DNA from: an uncultured Bacteroidota bacterium
GTDB lineage: Bacteria > Bacteroidota > Bacteroidia > 2-12-FULL-35-15
Assembly (NCBI GenBank): GCA_903919535.1
Contig: CAIXIP010000341.1
Location: 1-38,650, forward strand
DNA length: 38,650 bases
Reading direction: 5' to 3'
The notes beneath the pieces are model-generated. The model saw only the letters and a program-made list of their open reading frames with translations. It was not told where the DNA came from and made no database searches. The translations under genes were made by a program, and so were the position numbers. Shown here one piece after another: positions 34,198 to 38,650 of this stretch. Position 1 is the stretch's first letter; each line of letters starts with the position of its first letter.

Positions 34198-35088
34198 ATG
34201 CAATTACTTACACCACAAAATTTTACGGATTACGAATTAATAGATGTTGGTCATTTTGAAAAACTCGAACGATTTGGTCAATATATTACCATTCGTCCCG
34301 AGCCACAAGCTGTTTGGGATAAAACAATGAACAATGCCGAATGGGAAAAAATAGCACACGTAAAATTTATTTCCAAATCAAGCTCTTCAGGTGAATGGAA
34401 AAAATTAAAACCAATGCCCGACCAATGGAAAATTAGTTATCCTGTTATCGGAAATCAGGAAACGCAAATCTGTTTCCGTTTAGGGTTAACTTCTTTTAAA
34501 CATGTAGGTATTTTTCCCGAGCAAGCAAGCAACTGGGATTACATATTCGATACTATAAAAACAATGCAGACACCTCAACCAAAAGTGTTGAATTTGTTTG
34601 CATATACCGGTGGAGCATCATTGGCTGCTAAAGCGGCTGGAGCTGATGTTACACACGTTGATTCTATAAAACAGGTAGTAACCTGGAGTAAGGAAAACAT
34701 GGATCTTTCCAACTTAACAAACATTCGCTGGGTGGTAGAAGATGCCTTGAAATTTGTAAAGCGTGAAGAAAAACGAGGTAACAAATACAACGGAATTATC
34801 CTTGATCCTCCTGCATTTGGGCACGGACCCAATGGTGAAAAATGGAAATTAGAAGATAATATAAATGAAATGATAAAAGGTGTTTTGAATCTGTTAGATG
34901 ACAAAGAACACTTCCTTATTCTTAATGCATATTCATTAGGATTTTCATCACTCATCATCGAAAATTTATTGAAACAAAAAGCTGGCAATAATTTAAATGT
35001 TGGTGAATTATATCTGCAAGCCACAAAAGGGAACAAGCTTCCGCTAGGCGTTTTTGGAAGATTTAAGAATATTCAAGTATATTCCTAA
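34198..35088 (+). CDS. Class I SAM-dependent methyltransferase, RlmI-like
   Basis: A 296-residue cytoplasmic enzyme. The central SAM-binding motif is LNLFAYTGGASLAAKAAGA (about 130-148), with the acidic VTHVDSIK strand after it. The catalytic motif DPPAFG at about 203-208 is of the type found in 23S rRNA cytosine-5 methyltransferases (RlmI group) and related enzymes. It lacks the N-terminal PUA domain of E. coli RlmI, so the exact target is uncertain; it is often annotated in Bacteroidota as an oxidoreductase or plain methyltransferase. It begins 4 bases after the phosphatase gene and is followed by the palindromic repeat of the DUF559 cassette. Confidence 0.9.
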   Translation: MQLLTPQNFTDYELIDVGHFEKLERFGQYITIRPEPQAVWDKTMNNAEWEKIAHVKFISKSSSSGEWKKLKPMPDQWKISYPVIGNQETQICFRLGLTSFKHVGIFPEQASNWDYIFDTIKTMQTPQPKVLNLFAYTGGASLAAKAAGADVTHVDSIKQVVTWSKENMDLSNLTNIRWVVEDALKFVKREEKRGNKYNGIILDPPAFGHGPNGEKWKLEDNINEMIKGVLNLLDDKEHFLILNAYSLGFSSLIIENLLKQKAGNNLNVGELYLQATKGNKLPLGVFGRFKNIQVYS

Positions 35089-35118
35089 TTGAACCATAAG
35101 AATGATTGTGTAGACGAT

Positions 35119-35149
35119 CTCCCCCTCTTGAGGGGGATAAAGGGGGAGG
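35119..35149 (+). repeat. GC-rich palindromic repeat R1 (left end of DUF559 cassette)
   Basis: The core CCCCCTC-TT-GAGGGGG (35121-35136) is a 7-bp stem with a 2-base loop; a further AGGGGGAG (35141-35148) can instead pair with CTCCCCCT (35119-35126), so two folds compete. It is the same unit as R3 in inverted orientation, differing in the short spacers. The base content contrasts sharply with the AT-rich surroundings. Confidence 0.88.
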
Positions 35150-35192
35150 GCACGATTATCCTCTCATAATAAATAATACAAAGAATAAACAA

Positions 35193-35224
35193 AACCTCCC
35201 CCTGCCCCCTCGGGGAGGGGGAGG
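35193..35224 (-). repeat. GC-rich palindromic repeat R2, just before the DUF559 start codon
   Basis: It begins AACCTCCCCCTGCCCCCTC, 19 bases identical to R3, and ends CGGGGAGGGGGAGG. The two arms CCTCCCCCT and AGGGGGAGG are perfectly complementary. Its end supplies GGAGG (35220-35224) five bases before the ATG at 35230, an ideal Shine-Dalgarno position. Confidence 0.9.
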
Positions 35225-35229
35225 AATAA

Positions 35230-35619
35230 ATGAAAGCCACAAAAGAAAATCACAATTTATACAACAAATCTCTTCAGCCATTTGCACACGAAAACCGTTA
35301 CCAAATGACTAAAGCCGAAGCGTGTTTGTGGAAATATGTGCTAAGGGCAAAAATGATGTGCGGCTATACATTTAACAGACAACGACCTGTTTTAAATTAC
35401 ATTGCCGATTTTATGTGTAAAGAATTAAAATTGATTATTGAAGTTGATGGATATTCTCATACGTTGGATGAAGTGATTGAAAAGGATATTATTAAACAAA
35501 GAGATTTGGAAATTGCAGGATTTACAGTCATTCGATTTTCGGATGAAGAGGTATTGAAAAGAATTGAAGATGTGAGAAGATCACTGGAATTGAGAATTGA
35601 AGAAATCAAAAAAAGCTAG
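35230..35619 (+). CDS. DUF559 (Vsr-like) endonuclease domain protein
   Basis: A 129-residue protein of the DUF559 family, related to the PD-(D/E)xK/Vsr nuclease fold. After a basic N-terminus (TKAEACLWKYVLRAK) comes FNRQRPVLNYIADF with D60, then the catalytic-type pair E71 and D73 in LIIEVDGYSH, H77, and later KQRDLEIAGFTVIRF and SDEEVL. All expected acidic residues are present, so it is probably an active DNA nuclease or nickase, though activity of the family is not generally proven. There is no adjacent methylase. Palindromic repeats sit 5 bases before its start (R2) and 2 bases after its stop (R3), with R1 further upstream. This suggests the gene and repeats move or function together. Confidence 0.9.
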   Translation: MKATKENHNLYNKSLQPFAHENRYQMTKAEACLWKYVLRAKMMCGYTFNRQRPVLNYIADFMCKELKLIIEVDGYSHTLDEVIEKDIIKQRDLEIAGFTVIRFSDEEVLKRIEDVRRSLELRIEEIKKS

Positions 35620-35621
35620 AG

Positions 35622-35651
35622 AACCTCCCCCTGCCCCCTCTTGAGGGGGAG
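35622..35651 (-). repeat. GC-rich palindromic repeat R3 (right end of DUF559 cassette)
   Basis: AACCTCCCCCTGCCCCCTC then TTGAGGGGGAG; CCCCCTC-TT-GAGGGGG is the same 16-base palindrome as in R1. R1 and R3 are inverted relative to each other and enclose 533 bases (35119-35651). R3 lies between two convergent genes and may also act as a transcription barrier, though no T-run follows. Confidence 0.9.
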
Positions 35652-35677: not shown

Positions 35678-38650
35678 CTAATTCCCTTTTTTCTGCACAA
35701 TCATTTTTTGGATTTTCGTAAATCTATCAGTAGAAATTTTCAGAAAATAAATTCCGCTCTCAAAATTCATCGAGTTTATATGTATCGTTTTGTTAGTTGT
35801 TTTTTCTGAATACACATTCTGTCCTAAAATAGAAACAAGCTCTACAAGCGTTTCTGCATTGTTAAAATTTTTCAGTTCAACAGTAAAATCACCATTGTTC
35901 GGGTTGGGATAAATTGAAAAAGAGAGAATGCTATTTTCATCAATGCTTGTTATTACAATAACATTAGATGAAGCAGAATTACAACCATTAGCATCAGTAA
36001 CAATCACATAATAATTACCGCCTTGTGTTGGGGTGTAACTCGCTGCTGTTGCACCAACAATAATTCCTGAACTATTGTACCACTGATTTCCTGTTGTTGC
36101 ATTAGAGTTAAGAGTTCCACTTATTTGTGTAATTAAAGGAGTTGTAGGCAAAGGATTAATTATTACCAAAAGAGCATTTGATGTTTCCGGATTATTTAAT
36201 GCACAAACATTTGACGAATTTATTATACAAGTTACGGCATCACTAGTATTTAAAGTTGTACTGGAAAATGTTGGACTATTTGTTCCCGCATTTATTCCAT
36301 TTACCTGCCATTGATAACTAGGGGTTGTTCCACCATTTGTTGCACTAGCAGTGTATGTTGCTGGTGTACCTATACAAAAACTTGCTGATGGAGAAGTAAT
36401 GCTTGCACCTACAGTTGTTCCCGAATTAATGGTTGCTGTTACCGGCACCAGTACACTGGTACAACCTTGTTTGATCTCCCAATTATAGAAGTAATAATAA
36501 TAAACAGGATTATTTGCGCTGTTACCAGTTATGGAAACTATCCCTGCAATTGAATAAGGATAAACCGCTCCAGCAGAATTTCTGTATAAATTATTGTTCC
36601 CTGCAACACCCAATTGAAGATCAACTCCAATAGGAACGTTAAAATTCAAAGTGATACGATTTTGACCTGAAGGAACATTAACTATTGCAGATTGTAATAC
36701 AGTTCCTGCACTATTACGTAATTCAATAGTTCTGTTACCGGCTGTATTCGCATTTACCCATACCGAAACAAGAGTAAATGCACTTGTTGCACTAAACTTT
36801 AAATAATGATACGTTGCTGCAGTAAAATATCCTCCCGCACCAATACTACCTGTAAGGGCACCAACGTATTGAGAAGCTCCTCCTGCATCGTTTTCAACAT
36901 AATAAGTTGTTGTAGATGTAAGGGTTGGGGTGGTAAAGGATGTTCCGGTATTCACTAAATTCCCTCCTGTTGCTGCATCGTACCAATTAATAGTTCCACT
37001 TGCTGATGCTGTTAATACAAGTGACGCAGGAACACAACCAGGTGCTATTGCTGATTGAACAACTGGTGCATCAACAACCGTGACAGTAACAAAATTCGTT
37101 TTTATCAAAGAATCGGCTCCTGCACAATTACTTATTTTTAATTTGATCGAATAGGTTCCGCTTGCAGTATATATATGTGTAGGGTTTTGTTGTGTAGAAG
37201 TAATTCCGTCTCCAAAATTCCATAGCCAGGAAGTTGAACTTCCGCTAAGGTCAGTAAAATCAACAGCTCCACCACATGCACTTGTAATGGCGGCAGTAAA
37301 ATTAGCAACTGGTGAGATTGGGTTCAAACTGATATCTTGTATTGTTGCATTTCCATCTGTTACAACAATATTGTTTATTGTTTGTGATTGATAACCAGGT
37401 GCTGAATAGGTAACATTGTATGTTCCCTGATAAATAGGCCGATGATAATTTCCAACAGGCAAGGCTGAATAAACATGGGAACTATCAATATCGTGACCGC
37501 TAATAAACACTTTCGCTTTAATAGGTTGATTGGTACATGCATCTTTTATTATTCCTCGAATACCATGCAACGCCTCTTCCATGTAATTCAAAAATGATCT
37601 GTAATTATCATTCCAGTTAGTAAGAAGATCTGCGGTAGGCGTAACTTTTATATCCGATAATTCCAATGTAAACTCTCTGCAGTGTTTGAAATAATTCATA
37701 TAATCCTGACGTCCACCGGTAATGCTATACCACGCGAATCCGTTGGAAATCCCATTCGGATTTACACTTGTCATGTATCCTGCAGGAGCGTTTGCCATTG
37801 CTGTATCAGCATATTTTGATGATTCACGTATCCACCAATTATCATCAGCAGGTAATTGTGCCCAGGTATCCCATGGATAATTAACTACTTCTGCACCACC
37901 ATGAAAATTAGCCGCCATTACAAAATTCATCGTGTCTGCAAAATCCATGAATGCTTGTGTTTCGGGTTGCCACGAATTTCCATCAGGATGTGGACCGGCT
38001 TGCGGATCAGGATAATTACGATTCAAATCAATATTATTTCCATTAAAACGGGTTGCACCATTTACAGTTGTGCTCCCACCAGCATATGTTCCATCAGGAT
38101 TTGCGAGCGGACAGATCCAAATCTCCATGCTATTTACCAAGCTGGTAACGCGAGCATCTGTACCATAGTTAGTCAATAAAAAATCAATGTAATGCAACAT
38201 ACCAATATATCCGGCAGTTTCATCACCATGCATACTGGATGAATATAAAAACTGAGGTTCGTTTTCTTTTACATTTATATTATCTGATATTTTTAAAAGC
38301 ATTATTTTTCTTCCGCTAGTCAACGTTTTAATGGTAACTAGCTTGCAAATAGTTGGATGATCAGTAACAAACTGATTCATAATAGTTTCATAATTTGGAT
38401 AAGTAGGATACGTGTTCCAGATAGTTTGAACTTGAGTGAAGCTTTTCCCTTTTCCCATCTTCACCTTATTCAAAGAACTTGGAGGAGGTAAAATAGTGTA
38501 TTGATAATTCAAGACAATAAATTTTTCGAAGCCGCTTTTATTGGCATACGCAAACACTTCATTGTTTTTTACATTATCGATAGAAATAATTTTTGTGAGA
38601 GTTTTTATTTCTTCTCTGGAAGTAATGTTAAATTTAAAATACACTTCCCC
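35678..38650 (-). CDS. Secreted M14 zinc carboxypeptidase with type A T9SS tail (5' end cut)
   Basis: The frame stays open to the right edge, so the signal peptide and true start lie outside; about 990 residues are visible. Counting from the GTG at 38644, the M14 catalytic domain has zinc ligands H139 and E142 (MHGDE) and H248 (NFHGG), substrate-binding DLNRNYP at 206-212 and catalytic E328 in EFTLELSD. After it come a carboxypeptidase-regulatory-like domain (GIRGIIKDACTNQPI, about 365-445), a PKD domain (LWNFGDGITSTQQNP), two Ig-like or CHU-type domains (TINWYDAATGG and PSYQWQVNG regions), and a type A sorting domain (IYPNPNNGDFTVEL, GIYFLKI, basic end). It should be an active surface-bound or secreted exopeptidase exported by T9SS. 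Confidence 0.95.
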   Translation of the reverse strand, partial: GEVYFKFNITSREEIKTLTKIISIDNVKNNEVFAYANKSGFEKFIVLNYQYTILPPPSSLNKVKMGKGKSFTQVQTIWNTYPTYPNYETIMNQFVTDHPTICKLVTIKTLTSGRKIMLLKISDNINVKENEPQFLYSSSMHGDETAGYIGMLHYIDFLLTNYGTDARVTSLVNSMEIWICPLANPDGTYAGGSTTVNGATRFNGNNIDLNRNYPDPQAGPHPDGNSWQPETQAFMDFADTMNFVMAANFHGGAEVVNYPWDTWAQLPADDNWWIRESSKYADTAMANAPAGYMTSVNPNGISNGFAWYSITGGRQDYMNYFKHCREFTLELSDIKVTPTADLLTNWNDNYRSFLNYMEEALHGIRGIIKDACTNQPIKAKVFISGHDIDSSHVYSALPVGNYHRPIYQGTYNVTYSAPGYQSQTINNIVVTDGNATIQDISLNPISPVANFTAAITSACGGAVDFTDLSGSSTSWLWNFGDGITSTQQNPTHIYTASGTYSIKLKISNCAGADSLIKTNFVTVTVVDAPVVQSAIAPGCVPASLVLTASASGTINWYDAATGGNLVNTGTSFTTPTLTSTTTYYVENDAGGASQYVGALTGSIGAGGYFTAATYHYLKFSATSAFTLVSVWVNANTAGNRTIELRNSAGTVLQSAIVNVPSGQNRITLNFNVPIGVDLQLGVAGNNNLYRNSAGAVYPYSIAGIVSITGNSANNPVYYYYFYNWEIKQGCTSVLVPVTATINSGTTVGASITSPSASFCIGTPATYTASATNGGTTPSYQWQVNGINAGTNSPTFSSTTLNTSDAVTCIINSSNVCALNNPETSNALLVIINPLPTTPLITQISGTLNSNATTGNQWYNSSGIIVGATAASYTPTQGGNYYVIVTDANGCNSASSNVIVITSIDENSILSFSIYPNPNNGDFTVELKNFNNAETLVELVSILGQNVYSEKTTNKTIHINSMNFESGIYFLKISTDRFTKIQKMIVQKKGN

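Follow-up and report, generated by a model that had tools for sequence, protein, structure and literature searches.

A 38,650-base stretch of DNA (the window) contains a 533-bp unit in which a small DUF559 nuclease gene lies among short GC-rich repeats. Do the gene and the repeats belong together, and has the nuclease had a part in spreading them?

The locus and its repeats

The unit and its neighbours were arranged in the window as follows.

34198-35088: methyltransferase gene, the upstream neighbour of the DUF559 unit
35118..35149, + strand: R1, left end, an intrastrand-triplex motif with its tail toward the gene (from the sequence, the motif detector and equivalent ends in relatives)
35150..35193, no strand: AT-rich spacer from R1 to R2 (from the sequence; found in the close relative G001/L034 too)
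35194..35225, - strand: R2, an additional internal copy of the motif with a degenerate core, 5 nt 5' of the gene
35230..35619, + strand: DUF559 (PF04480, YcjD family) nuclease gene, 129 aa (from Pfam, alignment, profile and fold)
35622..35651, - strand: R3, right end, an inverted intrastrand-triplex motif, 2 nt past the stop codon (from the sequence, the motif detector and the right ends of relatives)
35678-38644, reverse strand: large gene, the other neighbour of the unit

All three repeats followed the layout of intrastrand triplex motifs (TMs), with a pyrimidine block, its reverse complement and a mirrored purine block separated by short loops: CCCCCTC is followed by GAGGGGG and then by GGGGGAG, which mirrors the purine arm. 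The copies listed in the preliminary description were re-found, with their positions and spacing, in the sequence and by a detector of the pyrimidine/purine/mirror-purine layout, which identified R1, R2 and R3 and no other place in the 38,650 bases and gave no match in 40 order-1 shuffles of the window. The three repeats are genuine and not a product of chance. Their earlier designation as palindromes had to be given up, as the third arm is a mirrored purine block and the layout is no plain palindrome. The pyrimidine arm is able to pair with either purine arm, and computed single-strand folding selected the outer pairing; judged by their sequence, the repeats could fold as a hairpin or as a triple helix.

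R1 reads TCTCCCCCTCTTGAGGGGGATAAAGGGGGAGG, and the 19 identical bases noted before in R2 and R3 (AACCTCCCCCTGCCCCCTC) were confirmed, at 5 nt upstream of the start codon and 2 nt downstream of the stop. R1 had been described as inverted relative to both other copies; this applies to R3, whereas the degenerate core of R2 (CTCGGGGAG) permits a TM reading in either orientation. The spacing of R2 and R3 around the gene was likewise correct, but they do not bound the unit: its actual ends are R1 and R3, with R2 as an extra copy. The outer tip of R1 is the point at which homology between unrelated copies starts, and the R1-R2 arrangement is common to the window and G001. The repeats themselves are GC-rich, as had been stated, and this richness is limited to them, because the G+C content is only 34% in the window and 39% in the whole unit.

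In the unit's own genome (3.87 Mb, 358 contigs), the strict unit occurred three times, always at this locus, and a looser pattern gave four matches, three of them here, so that the proposed search for further copies found the repeats nearly absent elsewhere. The same genome contained a single DUF559 gene, and no Y1_Tnp gene was found in it. The neighbouring methyltransferase matched Methyltrans_SAM and Cons_hypoth95, and these matches did not identify it as a cytosine-specific DNA enzyme. The DUF559 gene start (window 35226-35245) is similar in sequence to the 3' end of the methyltransferase (35010-35029), and in G001 a second copy of that 3' end lies past the unit (L034 2774-2832, 3454-3512; 59 bp, 80% identity).

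Several identities were considered for the locus and dropped. The Rfam matches lay far below the gathering scores, PADLOC identified no defence system, its weak matches being to a homing endonuclease model and a methyl-directed type II restriction enzyme, and a phage origin was represented by two phage records, each with a distant match.

The nuclease

The gene product matched DUF559 (PF04480) with 100 bits, against a gathering cut-off of 20.6, and residues E30, D60, E71, D73, H77 and R102 were invariant in an alignment of 28 homologues. Both the profile and the predicted structure of the window protein (pLDDT 87.5) matched 3HRL first, i.e., NGO0050 of N. gonorrhoeae, whose printed residues agree with the Neisseria DUF559 gene located here. 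The next match was the homing endonuclease I-Bth0305I (3R3P; profile E 1.3e-6, target-normalised TM-score of the fold 0.74-0.75). In an earlier profile study, YcjD was grouped next to Vsr (PMC1189080). The dN/dS values between pairs were mostly 0.04-0.17, and because of these values a working protein is being maintained by purifying selection.

Within the accessible text of the open-access papers naming DUF559, no report tying the family to repeats was found. The priority of the finding is not certain, since the search was limited to open-access papers. A search of the open literature for the repeat strings gave a Klebsiella CRISPR paper as the sole match.

Association of DUF559 genes with triplex motifs

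The occurrence of TMs beside DUF559 genes was determined in the 36 genomes of the genus, where a TM lay within 300 bp of 34 of the 38 stand-alone genes with enough flank, at a background density of 0.067 TMs per kb. The nearest upstream TM was in the '+' orientation in a ratio of 24:5 and the nearest downstream TM in the '-' orientation in a ratio of 28:2. The expectation that relatives would carry the repeats beside their DUF559 genes was thereby borne out. The association extended beyond the genus. In an even phylum-wide draw of 148 genomes, 24 of 27 located domains (from the 30 best loci) had a TM within 300 bp, with a background of 0.033 per kb. The strict detector, which misses many GCTGGC-core copies seen by eye in this set, assigned a TM to 51 of 75 close homologues taken from other genomes. 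The same geometry elsewhere within the loci served as a further control. As a test for inverted ends, the TM detector took the place of a flank-to-flank alignment score, which was misled by long direct repeats. Tandem copies of one end motif with a period of ~81 bp were observed behind the DUF559 gene in G009:C66, G027:C11 and G031:C16.

The genus data also bear on the idea that DUF559 is cargo, and that the TMs are moved by an enzyme of another kind, e.g., a RAYT/IS200 (Y1) transposase or a DDE insertion sequence. Y1_Tnp genes are present in most of the genus genomes, and Bacteroidetes Y1 enzymes have been described with atypical flanking structures. However, none of the 20 Y1_Tnp loci of the genus genomes had a TM nearby (Fisher p = 1e-11), the unit's own genome and the TM-rich genomes G016, G033 and G035 lack Y1_Tnp, and TM counts across the genus showed no relation to the presence of Y1, which makes the passenger role scarcely credible. 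TM counts were moderately higher in genus genomes with a stand-alone DUF559 gene (p = 0.017, with a pattern that misses many TMs). Nor is the linkage a product of a repeat-rich background, because the 8.1-Mb Fulvivirga genome contains four strict TMs, three of which flank its two DUF559 copies.

The TM sequence varied by lineage, and each variant was found beside the DUF559 genes of its own lineage in Bacteroidota, Neisseria, E. coli and cyanobacteria. The TM beside the N. gonorrhoeae gene reads CTCTCCC..GGGAGAGAG..GAGAGAGGG, that beside E. coli ycjD reads CTCGCCCCTCTGGGGAGAGGGTTAGGGTGAGGG, with a TTA loop as in the published TMECO type A, and the cyanobacterial TM reads CCCCCCAATTCTGGGGGG..GGGGGG; the Photobacterium DUF559 gene also adjoins its own kind of TM. 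Orphan-type motifs were numerous in a pattern search (42 in the N. gonorrhoeae record and 27 in Photobacterium, with 0 for the pattern control). In the genus, DUF559-flanking cores, e.g., CCCCCTCTCCGAGGGGGCAGGGGG in G003, G026 and G035, recurred by eye as orphans of the same genome. The N. gonorrhoeae record behind L214 contains TM arrays of alternating orientation with a period of ~280 bp (57015-59102 and 1410616-1411951).

In E. coli, clear TMs were seen on just one side of ycjD, and the gene seems fixed in the lineages that have it. In the sapF-fabI interval (L222/L223), ycjD and its TMs were observed where the eef efflux operon is absent, and ycjD has been reported where that operon is missing in E. 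coli (PMC12817139). The presence or absence of ycjD was dropped as an empty-site test, because the gene alternates with the eef operon and the locus offers no clean empty site.

As judged from these comparisons, the core idea of the preliminary description, that DUF559 is a repeat-linked enzyme, has strong support both as an association and as a unit mobile across phyla, and its comparison with REP/RAYT elements fits the function but not the protein family. It had overlooked the TM/PIT/boxC class of the repeats, the ends at R1 and R3, the kinship with EDxHD homing enzymes and the in-frame sister class described below.

Copies at unrelated sites

Near-identical copies with unrelated flanks were found within single genomes, at 96.6% for L068/L072 of Fulvivirga, 90% for L041/L046 and 91% for L063/L078. 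Copies were also shared between phyla, the deltaproteobacterial L051 being 83-85% alike in the gene to the planctomycete L052 and L057. In the L051 versus L052/L057 pairs and in L058/L089, the homology started at TCCCCC of the left motif and ended at GGGGGACA or GGGGGAAA of the right motif. In two other pairs of copies, alignable DNA extended 60-100 bp past the TM tips. L041 and L046 share ~80 bp beyond the TMs, ending in an inverted TAATGCGAATT / AATTCGCATTA pair, and this stretch is perhaps a second nested element. Next to L080 lay a copy with both end motifs and just ~45 nt from the start of the gene, by its sequence an internal-deletion derivative. Several groups of relatives kept the unit in synteny, which shows that vertical inheritance is likewise common. 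Behind the methyltransferase the unit was present in G000 and G001 only and absent in the other relatives with readable downstream sequence, which do not represent an exact empty site, because their downstream genes differ.

True transposition is an alternative reading of this pattern: the TMs would be terminal inverted repeats, DUF559 a transposase-like nuclease that cuts out or copies the unit at the TM tips and inserts it where no TM is needed, and solo TMs leftovers or mini-elements. Such a reading is favoured by the homology bounded at the outer TM tips, the copies in non-homologous flanks, the internally deleted copy at L080 and the orphan TMs at many sites. Compared with classical insertion sequences, however, the loci had the inverted ends and showed no short target duplication of constant length. 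Longer direct repeats of 40-314 bp flanked 32 of 109 DUF559 loci, compared with 0 of 204 control placements, and in the cases read they had the TM and adjoining DNA inside; such repeats could stem either from long target duplications or from tandem duplication. The loci concerned were L053, L060, L080, L093, L095, L074, L061 and 25 others.

An in-frame class in housekeeping genes

DUF559 domains within long ORFs were dropped as a negative control, since 17 of 19 were also TM-flanked, with the tails outward; the failed control therefore revealed an in-frame class of the unit (L245-L260, in G001:C81, G015:C36, G020:C41, G006:C102, G006:C5, G014:C5 and others). The hosts, recognised by sequence, were MetH, leucyl- and isoleucyl-tRNA synthetases, acetyl-CoA synthetase, a PaaZ-like enzyme and a BadF-like kinase, and the borders of the inserts were TM-encoded peptides, e.g., LTPNPSPKERG and SPLSFGEGPGVRS. 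A terminator or purely regulatory role of the repeats was rejected because this class holds motifs of the identical kind within coding sequence.

One MetH site of the genus was found in four states: empty alleles in G000, G005, G021, G028 and others, solo in-frame TMs in G010 and G029, a deleted copy retaining part of DUF559 in G017, and full units in about ten genomes. The empty sites proposed as a check thus exist. On the tree, the MetH inserts formed two clades, of which one was placed next to the LeuRS inserts and the other next to the IleRS insert, and a single origin was rejected (forced grouping costs 18 log units, AU p = 0.002), the two-clade grouping having been seen on the first tree before the AU test. 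The trees thus point to two separate insertions at the MetH site. In the MetH gene of G001, a type I unit abuts a type II motif remnant. Repeated homing to a TM-bearing site would give this pattern, which, together with a homing nuclease as the closest characterised enzyme, argues against true transposition; as no short target duplication of fixed length was seen either, we consider true transposition rather unlikely.

The in-frame copies also bear on a housekeeping role, in which DUF559 would be a repair nuclease resolving folded TMs, as a guardian, or would be regulated by them, while the TMs spread otherwise and the pairing is kept by selection. Strong purifying selection, the many syntenic copies, the kinship with Vsr and a Caulobacter DUF559 protein that acts in a DNA-damage context agree with such a role. 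It does not explain why inverted TMs lie immediately at both ends of the gene, why the identical unit occurs at unrelated sites and in other phyla with homology stopping at the TMs, why TMs lie within coding sequence in the in-frame class, or why the Fulvivirga genome is almost devoid of TMs except at its DUF559 genes. The housekeeping role is, in our opinion, highly improbable.

Proposed mechanism

The 533-bp unit is probably a minimal mobile element, homing- or transposon-like, in which a Vsr/EDxHD-type PD-(D/E)XK nuclease lies between inverted TM ends and would act at the TMs. This reading was adopted because the gene and the repeat recur at unrelated sites in many phyla. We infer that the nuclease recognises, binds and cuts the motif, that TM folding in the single strand plays a part and that the unit is copied into the break during repair. 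The motif, when single-stranded in replication, transcription or repair, would fold into a hairpin or triplex, at which the nuclease would nick or cut, and repair would then copy the motif-bounded unit into the broken site. The target would usually already bear a motif, as in homing, and would sometimes be a new site; losses would leave solo motifs and internally deleted copies. The homing-like route is favoured on three grounds: a TM is often already present at the target, one site received two insertions, and the characterised enzyme nearest to DUF559 is a homing nuclease. Counted against a mobile element were the lack of a constant short target duplication at the loci, the synteny in several relatives, the one-sided TMs and apparent fixation of ycjD, the 60-100 bp shared past the TM tips in two pairs and the moderate size of the genus-wide TM excess.

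More broadly, we tentatively suggest that DUF559/YcjD genes and TMs may constitute a separate, phylum-spanning class of minimal mobile elements, differing from insertion sequences and RAYT elements in both ends and enzyme, that spreads the TM/PIT/boxC repeats, including those of E. coli and Neisseria, and has one branch living in frame in essential enzymes. The DUF559-TM unit may explain the spread of a long-known family of orphan bacterial repeats, and one nuclease family lying between such repeats in every well-sampled lineage here offers a testable answer to the origin of TMs. It also suggests a function for a widespread family of 'unknown function' for which a structure has been solved (3HRL) and which is represented in K-12 (ycjD). 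In addition, aminoacyl-tRNA synthetases and methionine synthase are seen to tolerate an in-frame element that looks selfish.

Comparison with known systems

Rickettsia palindromic elements consist of palindromic DNA inserted in frame within protein genes (PMC10969869). The in-frame DUF559 class resembles them in sitting in frame in protein genes. We know of no nuclease gene reported for these elements, and their sequence is unrelated to the TM units.

YcjD and NGO0050 (3HRL) belong to the same DUF559 family as the window protein, and Vsr to the same superfamily; the literature found does not tie them to repeats. The EDxHD homing endonucleases (I-Bth0305I, 3R3P) share a related fold and profile of the catalytic domain, and also the habit of inserting more than once at the same place in a conserved gene, as in the two insertions at one MetH site. 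Unlike EDxHD homing genes, the DUF559 unit has no intron or intein and is bounded by inverted triplex repeats, and its protein is smaller than I-Bth0305I-type enzymes and without extra DNA-binding modules.

REP/REPIN-RAYT systems are similar in having hairpin repeats of lineage-specific sequence around a single nuclease gene, with inverted flanking repeats and orphans that were seen in relatives and are few or none in the unit's own genome. The RAYT gene (TnpA-REP), however, encodes a Y1 HUH transposase, whereas a PD-(D/E)XK-type DUF559 gene occupies the place between the triplex-type repeats of the window, so the analogy appears to fit the function and not the family.

The TM/PIT/boxC motifs are the closest in the repeats themselves, sharing the pyrimidine/purine/mirror-purine layout, the intergenic copies and the inverted pairs, and the E. 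coli type A repeat adjoins ycjD as the window repeats adjoin DUF559. They were described as orphan repeats, known from over 260 genomes (Holder et al. 2015, PMC4666352); in E. coli they mark unstable loci, and the authors wrote that no mobility genes had ever been found nearby. Here, in contrast, nearly every DUF559 gene examined adjoins such motifs. Repeats with a nuclease and homing genes are kinds of system already known, and what would be new here is a dedicated nuclease gene joined to TM repeats.
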